Assembly (NCBI RefSeq): GCF_026210795.1
Contig: NC_089429.1
Coordinates: forward strand, 7,721,001-7,785,000
Direction: 5' to 3'
Source of the DNA: Rhizophagus irregularis
Lineage: Eukaryota; Glomeromycota; Glomeromycetes; Glomerales; Glomeraceae
Length of the DNA stretch: 64,000 nucleotides
Shown: positions 2,570 to 61,065 of the stretch, piece after piece
How positions within the stretch are numbered: position 1 is the stretch's first letter
Layout of the letters: every line of letters begins with the position of its first letter
Notes under the pieces: generated by a model
The model's input: the letters and a program-made list of their open reading frames with translations, nothing else
Database searches by the model: none
Told to the model about the DNA's origin: nothing
Translations under genes and position numbers: made by a program

Positions 2570-3740
2570 CTATACAAACAGTGTCAATACTGGTCCTTAG
2601 TAACCTAACCCATTTGACGATTGAATATTAAGATCTCCCATGATTATGTTATACTTCTTCCTTCTGTTCCTTCTGCTGTAACGTAGGCGACGATGGTTTT
2701 AAAACTAAATTTTCTGCAACATATCGAAGTTTAATGAAGTCAATGCGACTCAAAATATAATTCGGTCTCTGGCGAATTCTTTTTATCTAGAACAATTAGG
2801 TTATCATACTATCATTTATCGAACGAACAACTTTTTGATTCTCTAATGTGTTTAGTTATTGTTATATCGCTGTTTGGTGGGAAAAATGTATTACTCATTA
2901 TTAATTACATCTTTTTTGAAGAAATTCCATATAATAAGTTCCAATCCTTTGTATTTTTCCAGCATGTTTTTCCCAGAGTTTGTTAACTAATAGACACGCC
3001 CTCATGATCCTTTAGACCTTTGACCGTATTTGTTTAATGAATTGCTGTAGGTGACACGTACGGCATCATTTTTATCTTCTTCCTTGTCGGTAATTGAGTA
3101 TCTGTTGTGAATAGCTTTAATACCCTCGGCGCTTAAAAAGTATTTGATATCATTAATGATGACCTTATGGCGATTAGCTGAATTTTTAATGGTTGTGGAA
3201 TAAGATGAGTCTTCCTCTTTTAATAGAGGATTTTGTGAATGATCTTTTATGTAAGGAAGTGATTTGTGTACTTGTACAACTTCGTGATTTTGTCAAAATA
3301 AATGGCTAAGACCAGATTTACTAGAAATTCTGATAATTCAACCAATCCATGATTCACGGGCTTATTAATAATCGTGTTATCTGCAGAGGAATAACAGAAG
3401 TTCAAAAAAACCTGACACTTAGAATGAAAGGACGAAATTAACTAATTATATCCTTGTCTAATCTCTCCAGATTATCGTAAATTGGAAGAATTCTTGCTTG
3501 TAACTATACTACCTAACAATCCTTATTACACACACAAAACACTCTTGACCTCAACTCCATCAACAAGGAATAAAATTTGCCTTCACCAACTTTTTAAGGA
3601 TTGCATAACTTTTGAAAGCATTTTGATGATTTCGGTGAAGTCAAGTATCTGGATTGGTTTGTCCAGTCAATCATCGTCTTTTCCACAAATAAGAAAATCC
3701 AAAAGCGTTCAAGAAGATAAATAATAAATCAAATTTGTTT
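2570..3740 (-). pseudogene. Decayed minus-strand gene, possibly LINE-derived
   Basis: Several minus-strand blocks read as protein but are broken by stops and frame changes. About 3720-3530 gives a block with LDKPIQILDFTEIIKML followed by SKVMQSLKSW. About 3302-3020 gives roughly 94 open codons with no methionine, including IKYFLSAEGIKAIHNRYS. About 2680-2610 gives KYNIIMGDLNIQSS. The motif IIMGDLN resembles the GDFN/GDLN motif of the endonuclease domain of LINE elements (compare IIMGDFN in the LINE at 45.65 kb). The identity as a LINE relic is inferred from that motif alone, and the upstream blocks are not recognised. A plus-strand 80-codon ORF over 3482-3724 is the shadow of this reading. 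Confidence 0.4.
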
Positions 3741-55225: not shown

Positions 55226-56149
55226 GAGCTCCGAACAGGTCAGCCAAATTCAGGTAACCTGACCTGACCTGACCTGAAATTCAGGTCAGGTATGAAGATT
55301 GACCTGACCTGATTGACCTGTTAACCTGAAACTATTGATTCTACTATATAATAAAAGTGAGTTGCAGTATTGCGATTCACTTTTTTATATTGATTTTATA
55401 TAATAAAAGTGAGTTGCGATTCACTTTTTTATATAGATTCTATATAAAAAAAGTGAGTTGCAGTATTGCAATTCACTTTTTTATATTGATTTTGTATAAA
55501 AAAAATGAGTTGCGGTATTGCGATTCACTTTTTTATATAGATTCTATATAAAAAAAGTGAGTTGCGGTATTGCGATTCACTTTTTTATATAGATTCTATA
55601 TGAAAAAAGTGAGTTGCGGTATTGCGATTCACTTTTCTATATTGATTTTATATAAAAAAAGTGAATCGCAATACCGCAACTCACTTTTTTCATATAGAAT
55701 CTATATAAAAAAGTGAATCGCAACTCACTTTTATTATATAAAATCAATATAAAAATGTTGAATCGCAATATTTTGAGAAAAAACGTTGCGAAAACGTTTT
55801 TTCATAATATTATATTAAAAAAATGTTTCATAATGTATTTTTTTGATATTTCAATAATAACGTTGCAAAAACATTTTTTTCATAATGTTATATTAAAAAA
55901 AACGTTTTGCAATATTTTTTTTCAATATTTTAATAAAAAACGTTGCAAAAACGTTTTTTTTCATAATATTATATTAAAAAAAAAAGTTTTGTACCATTTT
56001 TTTTCAATACTTTAATGAAAATTTTTCAGGTTTCAGGTCAGGTCAGGTCAAACAGACAACCTGATATAACCTGACCTGACCTGACCTGAAAAAAAATTTC
56101 AGGTCAGGTTTATCAATTAACCTGACCTGACCTGACCCATTCGGAGCTC
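55226..56149. mobile_element. 0.92 kb TA-flanked element nested in the 1.65 kb element
   Basis: The ends GAGCTCCGAACAGGTCAG and, complemented, GAGCTCCGAATGGGTCAG are flanked by TA at 55224-55225 and 56150-56151. Both sub-terminal regions are tandem arrays of the 5-mer CCTGA (AGGTC on the other side), about 55235-55330 and 56030-56137. The core is the fold-back satellite described separately. No coding capacity is visible. Confidence 0.85.
55342..56010. repeat. Fold-back satellite and AACGTTG repeats
   Basis: From 55342 to about 55655 six or seven direct units of about 60 bp carry AAAAGTGAGTTGCGGTATTG followed by CGATTCACTTTT, each itself a hairpin. From about 55655 to 55760 the same unit appears in inverted order (GTGAATCGCAATACCGCAAC), giving a long hairpin. 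From about 55775 to 56005 there are three units of about 75 bp with AAAACGTTGCAAAAACG and TTTTTTCATAATATTATATT. The ORFs here are repeat translations. Confidence 0.85.
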
Positions 56150-57148: not shown

Positions 57149-57468
57149 CGCAAATATATCAAGATTCACTGATCCGTTTTCTATAATTTTAGGCTCGTTG
57201 GAAAGCCCTTGTTCTGGACTTTATAGGCGAAAAAAGAGCTTGCCGATTAAATCATTAGATCCAGAAATATTTACGTTTAAAGTTGAGGTATAAACTTTTT
57301 AACATGCTTAAATGCAAATATCTTGGGATCCACTGATCCATTTTTTATAAATTTAGGCTCTTCGGAAAACCCTTGATCTGGTCTATATGAGCGAAAAAAG
57401 AGCTTGCCGATTGGATCATTAGATCTGGAGATATTTACGTTTAAAGTTGAGATACAAATTTTTAATAT
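57149..57468. repeat. Tandem duplication of 162 bp
   Basis: Two direct units starting GCAAATAT at 57149 and 57311 share CACTGATCC, TTTAGGCTC, GGAAA, CCCTTG, TCTGG and the long block GCGAAAAAAGAGCTTGCCGA, and end with TTTACGTTTAAAGTTGAG. Conservation is highest over GCGAAAAAAGAGCTTGCC. No coding is evident. Confidence 0.75.
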
Positions 57469-57651
57469 ACTGTATATAGTAAGTGCTAAGAATTATATTA
57501 AGAGAGAGATTGTCATTAAACCGGAGAAAATGATCGACATTCTATAATTAATTTTACGGGCTTTGTAATTAATAAAAAAAAATTTTTTGGAATTTCTTGT
57601 TCTTTACTATAAATTTTTTTCCAATAAGTGAAAAAAAACAGTATACAATTA

Positions 57652-59698
57652 GAGGTGTGCTCCGGTGAAATCCGTTCAATCCGTCATCCGATCTGATAAA
57701 AAAACGGATCATCCGGATTAAGAATGAATGGATTGCGGATAATCTGGATGGATCCGTTGGATAACATCGGATTGATCGGATGTTACACGGATGACCGGAT
57801 TGACCGGATTGATCAGATAATCTGGTCAAATTCATAACTTTTTTTTTTTTTTTAACATAAATGTTTTTTTTTAAAAAAAAACACCTTTTTTTCTTTAGGA
57901 CGGACTTGGACTTGGACTTCGGAATGACTTGGACGGCTTGAATTTTGAAAAGTAAGTGTAAATTTCTTTTTCTTTTGTCTTGGGAATGTCACTAAACGTT
58001 CCTTTACTTCATTTCTTTAAGGGACGCCTGCCTGGAACTCAATTTCGGCTTGGGCTATAAAGGTAAGTTGGGGGAGAGTAATTTTGATTTTTTGTTTGTC
58101 TTTGGGAACGTCATTAACGTTCCTTTTGCTTTTTTTCTTTAGGGGACGCCCTCCCAGATTTGGATTTCATAAAGGTAAGTTGGGGAGGGTATTTTCAGGT
58201 TTTTTTTTGTCTTTGGGAACGTCATTAACGTTCCTTTTGCTTTTTTTCTTTAGGTGACGCCCTTCCTAGACCTGGATTTCAGTTTGGGCTATTAAAGTAA
58301 GTTGGGGAAATTAATTTTTGTTTTTTTTTTGTCTTTAGAAACATCATTAACATTCCTTTTGCTTTTTTTCTTTAGGTGACGCCCTTCCTAATCTGGATTT
58401 CAGCTTGGGCTATTAAAGTAAGTTGGGGATGTTATTTTTGAGTTTTTTTTTGTCTTTGGGAACGCAATTAATGTTCCTTTTGCTTCTTTTCTTTAGGTGA
58501 CGCCCTTCCTGGATCTGGATTTCAGCTTGGGCTATTAAAGTAAGTTGAGGGAGGGTGTTTTGCTTATTTTTTTTTTAGGAACGTCATTAACGTTCCTTTT
58601 GCTTCTTTTCTTTAGGTGACACCCTTCCTGGACCTGAATTTCGGCTTGGGCTATTAAAGTAAGTTGGGGAGGGTGTTTTATCTTTTTTTTTTGTCTTTAG
58701 GAACGTTATTAACGTTCCTTTTGCTTTTTTCCTTTAGGTGACGTCCTTCCTAACCTGGATTTCGGCTTGGACTATTAAAGTAAGTTGGGGAGATTATTTT
58801 TGAGTTTTTTTTTGTCTTTGGGAACGTAATTAACATTCTTTTTGCTTCTTTTCTTTAGATGACGCCCTTCCTGGACCTGGATTTCAGCTTGGGCTATTAA
58901 AGTAAGTTTGGGAAGTTAATTTTTATTTTTTTTTGTCTTTAGGAACGTCATTAACGTTCCTTTTGCTTCTTTTCTTTAGGAGACGCCCTCCCGGATTTGG
59001 ATTTTATAAAGGTAAGTTGGGGAGGTTATTTTTGAGTTTTTTTTGTCTTTGGGAACGTAATTAACGTTCCTTTTGCTTCTTTTCTTTAGGTGACGCCCTT
59101 CCTGGACCTGAATTTCGGCTTGGACTATTAAAGTAAGTTGGGGAAGGGTTTTTTATCTTTTTTTTTTGTCTTTAGGAACGTAACTAACGTTCCTTTTGCT
59201 TCTTTCTTTAGGAGGACGCCTCTTGGACCTGGATTTCGGCATGGGTTATAAAGGTAAGTTGGGGGAAAGGTATTTTTGTTTTTTTGTTTTTAGGAATGTA
59301 ATTAACGTTCCTTTTGCTTCTTTTTTTAGGGAGACACCTTCTTGGACCTCTAAATCTTAAACTTTTTATAAATATTGTGTCAACTAATTTGTTAAAAATC
59401 ATTTGTAATAACGTAAAAATAAATACTATGTTTATTATTATAAAATTTCTAATTGTTAATTAATATTAATAAAAAGTATTAAGTAGAAAAAACTGAATTC
59501 AGATTCACCAGATTCACCGGATTGATCGGATTATTCAGATATCCGGTCAACCATCCGGTCAAATTGGTGAGCAAGTATTGACCGGATATCCGATGATCTA
59601 TCCGGTCAATCCGATGAATCATCCAGATCAATCCGAATCCAGTCAAATTTTGGATGGATGACCGGATATCTGGATTGACCAGATTCGAAGCATACCTC
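57652..59698. mobile_element. 2.05 kb TA-flanked element with CCGGAT ends carrying an intron array
   Basis: The left end GAGGTGTGCTCCGG and the complemented right end GAGGTATGCTTCGA form short terminal repeats flanked by TA (57650-57651 and 59699-59700). Sub-terminal regions (57660-57835 and 59505-59690) are built of CCGGATTGA, GACCGGAT and ATCCGGTCA units in both orientations, so each end can fold. Similar CCGGAT units form the repeat at 26.5-27.85 kb. The central 1.46 kb is the exon/intron-like tandem array. No transposase is present. Confidence 0.75.
57899..59360 (+). repeat. Tandem array of about 12 exon/intron-like units
   Basis: Each unit of about 110-120 bp consists of a 5' splice donor GTAAGTTGGGG, a T-rich stretch ending TTTGTCTTT, the palindrome GGAACGTCATTAACGTTCC, a polypyrimidine tract and acceptor (TTTTGCTTCTTTTCTTTAG), and then a 32-43 nt block such as GTGACGCCCTTCCTGGACCT followed by GGATTTCAGCTTGGGCTATT. 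The first intron-like segment is 57952-58021, and the last acceptor is at about 59329. The likely ancestral block (GG-13 codons-G, 42 nt) is a symmetric phase-1 exon encoding DALPDLDFGLGYKG. Many present copies have TATTAAAG instead of TATAAAG, which adds a stop or shift. Two copies (third and tenth blocks) share an 11 nt deletion. Confidence 0.85.
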
Positions 59699-59704
59699 TA
59701 TATA

Positions 59705-61065
59705 CAATAACTTTCATGTCCAAAAAAAATATTTCATAAACTTGCACTATAGGTATACATATGTAGTTTTAGTAGAAACTGTACAAGTTTAACAAAGAAT
59801 GTGAATATTAAAAAGATTCAAATAAAACTAAATAAAGATTTAAAAACTAAATAAAAAACCAAATATAGCTTAGTTACAGTGAAAAATGTTCAAAATTTTT
59901 TCATCCAATATTTGAGTTAATAGGAAATTTACCATCGAAATTTTGCGTTCCTACATAGAAAAGTCAAAGACGCGAAACTCTAGCGATTTCAAACTTTGCA
60001 AGTGGCTTAGCTAGGATTGTCACTATTAATTACCATCTTTAAAATTTGTATATCATATCACATGATGATATGACAATCCAGTAAAAAAGGAGTATTAGCC
60101 ATTTTTAGCGATAATTTGTGTAAATCGGCATTATTAAAATTCTCCAGTTGAGTGGCAATTTGTCCTTTAATTTAAAAGAAATATTTACCAACTTAAAGTA
60201 TAATAACATTAAATAAAAGTTTTTTAATACTCACCCCCAATTTACTGTATTATATAGTATTTTGTATAATAAAAATGTAACAAAATCAATATTTTAATTA
60301 AAGGTAGACAAATCAGCCCATATGAATAAAGAAAAGAAATATTAGTAATATATACCTTTTTATGCATTTCTAGATATAATAAATAAAAAAAAAATATAAA
60401 AATATGTATTTCTGGATATATTAAATAGATAAAAAATTGTGTTTTTAAATAAAAAAAAATTGAGAACAAAGAAAAGGTTTTAATAAGATAAACAAAAATG
60501 CGAAATGTAAATATTTAAATTATGTGATCACATGACATGTTATTTTATAGCCTGAATACATTTATAATTAAATTTGGTAAAACTATGTCATAAAATAAAA
60601 ATTTTTCAATCCAAATGACCCTTTGATTAAAAAATTATCGAAAAAAAATCTTTCCAAATGAACCCTTAGAAAATTTCTCATCAAAAAAATATTGAAATGA
60701 TCCCTCTAGTTAAAAAATTTTTTAAGTTAAGATTACATGAAACTGCGCATTAATTTACGTTAGCACAGATTAACGCTAAATCACATGATTCTGCGAAGGC
60801 AACACAAAACAGTGCAATGAAAATTAGCATCGATCATTGCACAGATTTATTTACATCGCACAAAACATTGCATAACACAGTGTATAGTTTAACATTTATC
60901 GTAAAATATTTTTATTTAATTATTTTCTAGTTACACTCTATCTAGAAGAACAATTATTAATATATAAATTTTCGCCTATAAAATATTAATCTAAAATAAA
61001 GAAAATAATTAAATTTGTGATTAATAAATTAAATACTTTTATAATTAAAATACATAATTAATTAA
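59705..61065. other. AT-rich spacer
   Basis: No gene was found. The reverse-oriented third copy of the GTAGACAAATCAGCCCATATG motif lies at 60304-60324. The block 60590-60720 repeats A/T words of the form CAAATGA(C/T)CC and AAAAAATT. The 75-codon minus ORF at 60242 is not protein-like. Confidence 0.4.

Follow-up and report, generated by a model that had tools for sequence, protein, structure and literature searches.

Nonautonomous hAT elements and miniature inverted-repeat transposable elements (MITEs), such as the mar family of Drosophila (PMC3517528), carry terminal repeats, lack a transposase of their own, and exist in many copies, and their bodies are short or consist of deleted filler. 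Introners, fungal introner-like elements, and the symmetrical stwintrons of Hypoxylaceae are multi-copy groups of similar introns with internal inverted repeats and predicted hairpins (PMC8469720, PMC9860276). The element described here lies at 57650-59700 of a 64,000-nucleotide stretch of Rhizophagus irregularis DNA (contig NC_089429.1, positions 7,721,001 to 7,785,000 of the forward strand; hereafter the window), and is, like the MITEs, bounded by terminal repeats, but its body is an intron-exon array, which recurs in elements with different terminal repeats. In contrast to introners and stwintrons, whose copies occupy new gene positions and whose inverted repeats lie at the intron ends, the intron-like units stand in tandem within one transposon, and the inverted repeat surrounds the branch site. 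Transposons of the fold-back type likewise vary in how many tandem units they hold between their inverted ends, and the units in the window differ from these by their ordered and conserved splice signals. The element can be placed among nonautonomous hAT-like elements with internal tandem repeats, as a variant whose body consists of intron-like units. A MITE as the term is used in PMC11075540 has a terminal inverted repeat (TIR), no transposase domain, and a length of 50 bp to 1 kb; the window element, at 2,051 bp, is longer than this, as is the shortest of 23 elements with both ends (1,219 bp).

We consider it probable, at roughly two chances in three, that the array is the inside of a nonautonomous hAT-like DNA transposon with complete sets of spliceosomal intron signals, and that such arrays would be transcribed and spliced into a noncoding leader or other noncoding RNA. 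The signal sets are complete, ordered, and conserved, with micro-exons between them. Constraint is strongest on the splice signals (GTAAGT donor, pyrimidine tract, and TAG acceptor), followed by the hairpin that holds the branch-site box, and the unit that recurs across families is a predicted intron with a branch-site hairpin.

Tandem Repeats Finder returned a 121-bp unit in 11.6 copies (57967-59349) for the window, a unit profile matched 12 units (57904-59327), and cutting at the signals gave 12 intron-like units in tandem, set between micro-exons (57899-59349; Table 1). The first-pass annotation of this DNA had described about 12 consecutive units with GTAAGT, a pyrimidine tract, and a TTTAG-type acceptor, and the observation is confirmed. 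It had placed them at 57899-59360, where the array indeed lies, but the feature is larger, the array being the inside of the TIR element. Introns and exons were cut at hand-picked TTTAG/TTTAAG acceptors and at GTAAGT; the donor was thus a cutting rule, and is nevertheless found in every unit. The 12 predicted introns are 70-80 nt each, and the micro-exons measure, in order, 53, 41, 32, 43, 42, 43, 43, 42, 43, 32, 43, and 42 nt, after which a terminal exon begins at 59330. A branch-site-like box (CATTAAC, CACTAAC, or similar), which we take to be of the fungal branch-site type, occupies the loop and closing pair of a palindrome, ∼26 nt 5′ of the acceptor. This palindrome had been described as conserved in each unit, which holds for part of the array: the GGAACGT-N5-ACGTTCC hairpin is perfect in seven of the 12 introns and degenerate in the other five. 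An extra GTCTTTAG stands directly 5′ of the hairpin in several introns (e.g., about 58330-58338 and 59168-59175), where it might act as an alternative acceptor ahead of the branch site.

Table 1 Element, flanking duplications, and predicted exons and introns, in window positions
Feature	Position	Strand	Remarks
Whole TIR element, hAT-like, nonautonomous	57650..59700	+	2,051 bp; ends TAGAGGTGTGCTCCGG... / ...GAAGCATACCTCTA; at least 20 dispersed array copies
8-bp target-site duplication, left (TATACAAT)	57642..57649		8/8 identity with right copy
8-bp target-site duplication, right (TATACAAT)	59701..59708		8/8 identity with left copy
Left terminal and subterminal region	57650..57898	+	Repeated CCGGAT/GGATTGA motifs, then T-rich tract ending TTTCTTTAG; 40 genome matches
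First micro-exon	57899..57951	+	53 nt, by signal cutting
Intron 1	57952..58021	+	GTAAGT...TTTAAG, 70 nt; hairpin degenerate
Intron 2	58063..58142	+	80 nt; branch-site hairpin perfect, 58105-58123
Intron 3	58175..58253	+	79 nt; hairpin perfect, 58216-58234
Intron 4	58297..58375	+	79 nt; hairpin degenerate (AACATCATTAACATT)
Intron 5	58418..58496	+	79 nt; hairpin degenerate, absent from predicted fold
Intron 6	58540..58615	+	76 nt; hairpin perfect, 58578-58596
Intron 7	58659..58737	+	79 nt; hairpin perfect, 58700-58718
Intron 8	58780..58858	+	79 nt; hairpin degenerate, absent from predicted fold (z +0.87)
Intron 9	58902..58979	+	78 nt; hairpin perfect, 58942-58960
Intron 10	59012..59089	+	78 nt; hairpin perfect, 59052-59070
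Intron 11	59133..59211	+	79 nt; hairpin perfect, 59175-59193
Intron 12	59254..59329	+	76 nt; hairpin degenerate
Terminal exon without donor	59330..59480	+	Enters A+T-rich stretch with AATAAA-like sites; end is a guess; common to many copies
Right-hand flank and right terminal repeat	59345..59700	+	59 genome matches to 59345-59704, some partial or self-complementary

The element moves as one unit, as is evident from its terminal repeats, its 8-bp duplications, and its dispersed copies. Target duplications of 8 bp with TAGAG-type ends are typical of hAT transposons. Both element ends were found at 23 loci, 19 of them of the window's own family or its long relatives and four of a second family (B); the 8-bp flanks at these loci were identical at 8/8 positions in nine, at 7/8 in seven, and at ≤4/8 in seven, and the chance of ≥7/8 identity is ∼0.001 per locus at this base composition. 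Across copies, the short terminal inverted repeats are of the TAGAGGTGTGCTC type at left ends and of the GCATACCTCTA type at right ends. Two longer relatives carry fragments of open reading frames on the opposite strand, one matching DUF659 (a piece of L026, E = 1.5e-6) and one matching Dimer_Tnp_hAT (a piece of L025, E = 0.002), both under the Pfam curated cut-offs. Neither locus has matching target duplications, and both are therefore old or rearranged. By its TIRs, 8-bp duplications, and dispersed copies, and by the putative hAT-type transposase fragments in relatives, the element is a nonautonomous hAT-like transposon and not an ordinary gene.

In both transposase-bearing relatives the right-hand array directly precedes the transposase, for which it could serve as a multi-intron 5′ leader. 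L025 has inward-pointing arrays at both ends, the right one leading towards the transposase, whose presumed start (ATGAGTTCAAGT) lies ∼240-250 bp past the array. With this start the array is not part of the transposase reading frame and is at most a leader; its position fits a multi-intron leader, and also two separate transcripts.

Paralogous arrays, whose absence the first-pass annotation had named as part of a refuting outcome, are numerous in the same genome: a 201-base array query gave 334 matches in 146.7 Mb. We examined 20 array loci from these matches, plus more with long end-to-end spacing. Units run head-to-tail at near-constant spacing (21 arrays), and the number of palindrome-matched units ranged from 6 to 23 per array in the 21 arrays first examined. 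By profile, well-preserved copies have from 5 (L030) to 24 (L009) units, and older or diverged loci have fewer (three on one strand and nine on the other in L026, three in L040, two in L045, and one in most family-B loci). The idea of a mobile or amplifying intron-exon module in the first-pass annotation is thus right in that paralogous arrays are many and vary in unit number; the mobile thing, however, is the whole TIR element, as the 8-bp duplications indicate. No isolated unit forming an intron in a host gene was seen, although no systematic search was made.

Within the window's own family (family A), the mean consensus frequency over 427 aligned units was highest for the donor (0.966) and the acceptor (0.941). 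Next came the pyrimidine tract at 0.930 and the hairpin at 0.908, with the exon at 0.855 and the remaining intron sequence at 0.714. Splice signals are thus conserved above the exon, as had been claimed, and the excess at donor and acceptor, set beforehand as a test, is present; the result was less clear in an earlier profile with unit ends at the acceptor, where the order did not change and the gap was smaller (donor 0.920, exon 0.866, rest of intron 0.710). When only G/C columns were counted (number of columns in parentheses), donor (0.945 (2)) and acceptor (0.944 (1)) still led, and pyrimidine tract (0.840 (4)), hairpin (0.845 (9)), and exon (0.827 (23)) were near each other, with the rest of the intron at 0.649 (9). 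The acceptor was kept in 319 of the 341 full-length units, and GTRAG was present in the donor stretch in 306. C-to-T vs. G-to-A changes at CpG were also tabulated for stem and exon, and the counts are too small and too non-independent to use.

About a dozen families, whose differing exons span 20-59 nt, have the same layout of donor, branch-site hairpin, pyrimidine tract, and AG. The family letters are our own; short exon motifs (GGACTTGGA, GACTAGGA) recur in several of the families, and certain families may be branches of a single one. Family B (L033-L036, L041-L043) has its terminal repeat in common with the window element, and its array is different: the unit of ∼111-112 bp has a 31-32-nt exon, a GTAAGTG donor, a AGAAACGTACTAACGTTTCT hairpin with CTAAC, and a TGTAG acceptor, and much other sequence differs. 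Exons measure 22-26 nt in family D (which has a GTACGT donor), 32 nt with one of 23 in E, 20-34 nt in F, 45 nt in G, 37 nt in H, 33-34 nt in K, and 53-59 nt in O (L093, L094, L096); families I, J, and L also have the layout, and families M/N have GTATA- or GTAATA-like donors that were picked by eye. Donor tallies by family required GT[AG]NG and are hence biased. In an alignment of 25 introns of families A, B, and D-N, GTA, TAA, and AG were invariant, GT and AG by choice since these sequences had been chosen as introns.

Elements that carry the layout belong to at least two terminal-repeat classes. The family H array (L052) is part of an element whose ends are quite different (GTTGCTTGCCGAAAC type) and which shows, by eye, an apparent 8-bp duplication, GTATTACA/GTACTACA. 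The G and B arrays at L047/L053 were considered as one element and rejected as such, two abutting element ends being present there. A second hairpin, opened by the donor, is frequent in families K and L: of 50 GTAAGTTT sites in nine loci (L067-L070, L074, L076, L078, L079, and L081), 31 open a perfect stem of ≥7 bp. This donor hairpin, GT+AAGTTTCG..CGAAACTT, has a stem of 13 bp in L078, and it places both donor and branch site within palindromes.

The array could also be a minisatellite inside a transposon, its palindrome being a DNA feature (a site for the transposase or another protein, or a cruciform-prone repeat) and its splice-like motifs functionless relics. We regard this as unlikely. 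Such a palindrome does not predict splice signals beside it or a branch-site box in its loop, on which a sample of hairpins taken without regard to splice signals bears. The hairpin pattern GAAACGTNCTAACGTTTC has 243 occurrences genome-wide against 0 reversed, and from these hits 20 clusters with 33 hairpins were taken in list order, leaving out the L047 cluster, which was already in hand, and four clusters known to match family B or G arrays (C2:3631887, C2:4060691-4061684, C2:5096184-5096428, and C6:3255457-3255826). GTAAG was found in the upstream window of 24 of the 33 hairpins, 42-59 nt upstream (200 shuffles: mean 1.0, max 4), a pyrimidine-rich run ending in YAG was found downstream of 31 (200 shuffles: mean 9.9, max 16), and donor and acceptor were both present at 22. 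The sampled hairpins are not independent events because they are tandemly related; counted by locus, GTAAG was present in 12/20 clusters and the acceptor in 20/20. The loop-open pattern GAAACGTNNNNACGTTTC occurs at 376 places genome-wide and 0 reversed, and its loop reads YTAAC in one orientation at 47 of the 50 places listed (the others being two ACTT and one ACTG). The pattern GGAACGTNNNNNACGTTCC occurs at 413 places and 0 reversed; a control palindrome of equal shape occurs at 0 places, and its reversed form at one per strand. The hairpin counts thus exceed chance. The YTAAC loop, the GTAAG at 42-59 nt, and the standing of donor and acceptor as the best conserved positions are all left unaccounted for by a minisatellite.

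Ordinary introns of the same genome were represented by 20 gaps in six chaperonin genes, of which 16 introns were resolved, in five genes; the calls were ours, made from continuity of the reading frame together with a simple score, and may include errors. Their branch-box stem was ≤5 bp in 16/16, and their donor was GTAAGT in 1/16. Stem figures for the array side of this comparison (488 introns) are biased because those introns were found by their hairpin, and they were left unused.

A number of results weigh against transcribed and spliced arrays, and some of these are what a minisatellite would lead one to expect. Four further loci from GGAACGTNNNNNACGTTCC matches comprise three intron-type arrays of family O and a palindromic satellite (L095) that has the same core and no splice signals; the palindrome alone is therefore not sufficient for an intron. 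Palindromic tandem repeats also lie near the element, at 55344-56021 of the window, with periods of 52 bp and 80-82 bp, the latter with AAACGTT/AACGTTT cores. Satellites resembling them were seen in L036, L041, L044, and L095, and a general palindrome-growing tendency of the genome could have contributed. Subterminal repeats are, moreover, used by a hAT-type transposase (PMC4763223). Hairpin covariation is weak in family A, staying close to expectation at all but one pair (Watson-Crick 0.826 vs. 0.781 expected). Twelve introns were folded, including seven of the 12 in the window, and the branch hairpin was within the minimum-energy fold of eight (five of the seven window introns and the L033, K, and L introns) and absent from that of four, including L050 and L057. 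Six of the seven window introns fold modestly better than shuffles (z from -1.6 to -2.52) and one does not (+0.87); for the K and L introns the advantage over shuffles is much larger (z = -3.9 and -7.6). The test window of nine of the 33 sampled hairpins is without GTAAG, GTATA/GTAATA candidates in some of them having been picked by eye. The exon is itself conserved (0.855 in family A) and so not free of constraint. Finally, none of the matches listed for a 705-nt joined-exon query (families A, B, E, F, G, H, and K; 229 matches) is an intron-less, spliced DNA copy, and none of them extends more than about 9 nt past one exon.

The first-pass annotation had proposed frame-preserving 42-nt exons encoding a 14-residue protein repeat, and the array would then be the relic of a gene whose micro-exons varied in number, captured by a transposon. 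Frame 0 of the joined window exons does read DACLELNFGLGYKG-DALPDLDF... until stops appear, L025 has 42-nt exons (by eye), and exons of families K and G are mostly multiples of three. However, only 3/12 window exon lengths are multiples of three, those of B, D, E, and H are not, and the joined exons have stops in all three frames in the window as well as in E, G, D, and H (G being represented by two exons only). Joined exons of family B leave one frame stop-free over 350 nt, and those of F (152 nt) and K (166 nt), which are small samples, leave two each. The protein-repeat reading was rejected on these translations, there being no sustained frame in the window or in four of the seven other families. 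The families, furthermore, have the intron in common rather than the exon. A captured gene is on this evidence improbable; the exons appear to be noncoding today, although some families, including A or B, may once have been coding.

Genes for SP7-like effectors of R. irregularis were considered for their tandem repeat units and multiple copies in the same fungal group. Their features are a signal peptide, a conserved intron that precedes the first repeat, and the motif Y[KR]Rx[AP]x[AP] (PMC11333574). Inspection by eye did not find that motif in any of the three frames of the joined window exons, which are also without a sustained frame, and membership in this effector family was rejected because motif and structure differ.

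Amplification of the introner type, in which each unit or intron is itself mobile and inserts beside its like and into genes, is very improbable: other fungi do have multiplying introns that resemble each other in sequence and are internally symmetrical (PMC8469720), and many introner families have target duplications or TIRs (PMC9860276), but the units here are head-to-tail at near-constant spacing, and the 8-bp duplications bracket the whole element.

If the arrays are, as we favor, series of spliceable introns inside a transposon, they would be transcribed inward from the terminal region, the predicted introns would be spliced out, and the joined micro-exons would form a noncoding leader or a noncoding RNA. 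The hairpin probably presents the branch site, which is the weakest step of this scheme, and unit number would change by unequal exchange or slippage. In L059 a pyrimidine-rich stretch ending in GTAAGT lies ahead of the array (∼138-259), and may be the promoter and first exon of an array transcript. As to the use of such an RNA, we propose that the element's transcript would most likely be kept processed and exported instead of silenced. DNA methylation and small RNAs have been reported at R. irregularis transposons (PMC8647823). Tentatively, and with doubt, one may go further: many transposon families of one fungus may have kept convergently, or may share by old descent, a self-contained spliceable module, a near-consensus intron with its branch site in a hairpin, repeated from a few to two dozen times as a multi-intron noncoding leader, so that their transcripts would be taken for properly spliced RNA and evade silencing by small RNAs or methylation. 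Such a mobile-element strategy would rest on splicing and not on coding.

Structures within yeast introns may likewise affect splicing (PMC12350175, PMC4691836), and in the parts of these two reports available to us we found no mention of a hairpin repeated across many introns around the branch box. A literature search combining intron, branch point, hairpin, and Rhizophagus returned no such description, and titles and abstracts on tandem intron arrays, introners, and internally repeated hAT elements did not contain this anatomy, neither of which proves its absence from print. Two-thirds of R. irregularis transposable elements are reported as unclassified (PMC11075540), and the arrays may account for some of these repeats. 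They touch the questions of why some transposons hold many introns, how structure at the branch site relates to splicing, and how tandem intron-exon units are gained and lost. If spliced, they would offer many natural replicates of one intron design, intact and broken ones next to each other, from whose RNA the worth of donor, branch hairpin, and acceptor could be read directly; hairpin-intron arrays would thus be an unusual natural test bed for the keeping and copying of introns.

Some long copies have inserts of other elements within the array (L021, L023, and L031/L032). The insert in L031-L032 (G000:C16:49000-64800) is another large mobile element of ∼12 kb, with a 1,376-codon open frame, a 400-codon frame that is integrase-like by eye, and others. 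In L023 (G000:C6:4852600-4861100) the array is split by ∼5.9 kb with several 120-200-codon open frames, possibly another mobile element. The long spacer of the L021 copy contains a repeat (∼2574-3400) that gives FTCKxxKKNAETISFGV-like peptides on both strands, and a small nested element with ends CCTAAGGTTGCTTG / CAAGCAACCTTAGG lies within the array of the transposase-bearing copy L026 (reverse strand, ∼1380-1630). Just left of the element in the window, at 57163-57465, a 164-bp unit is repeated in tandem about twice (85% matches).

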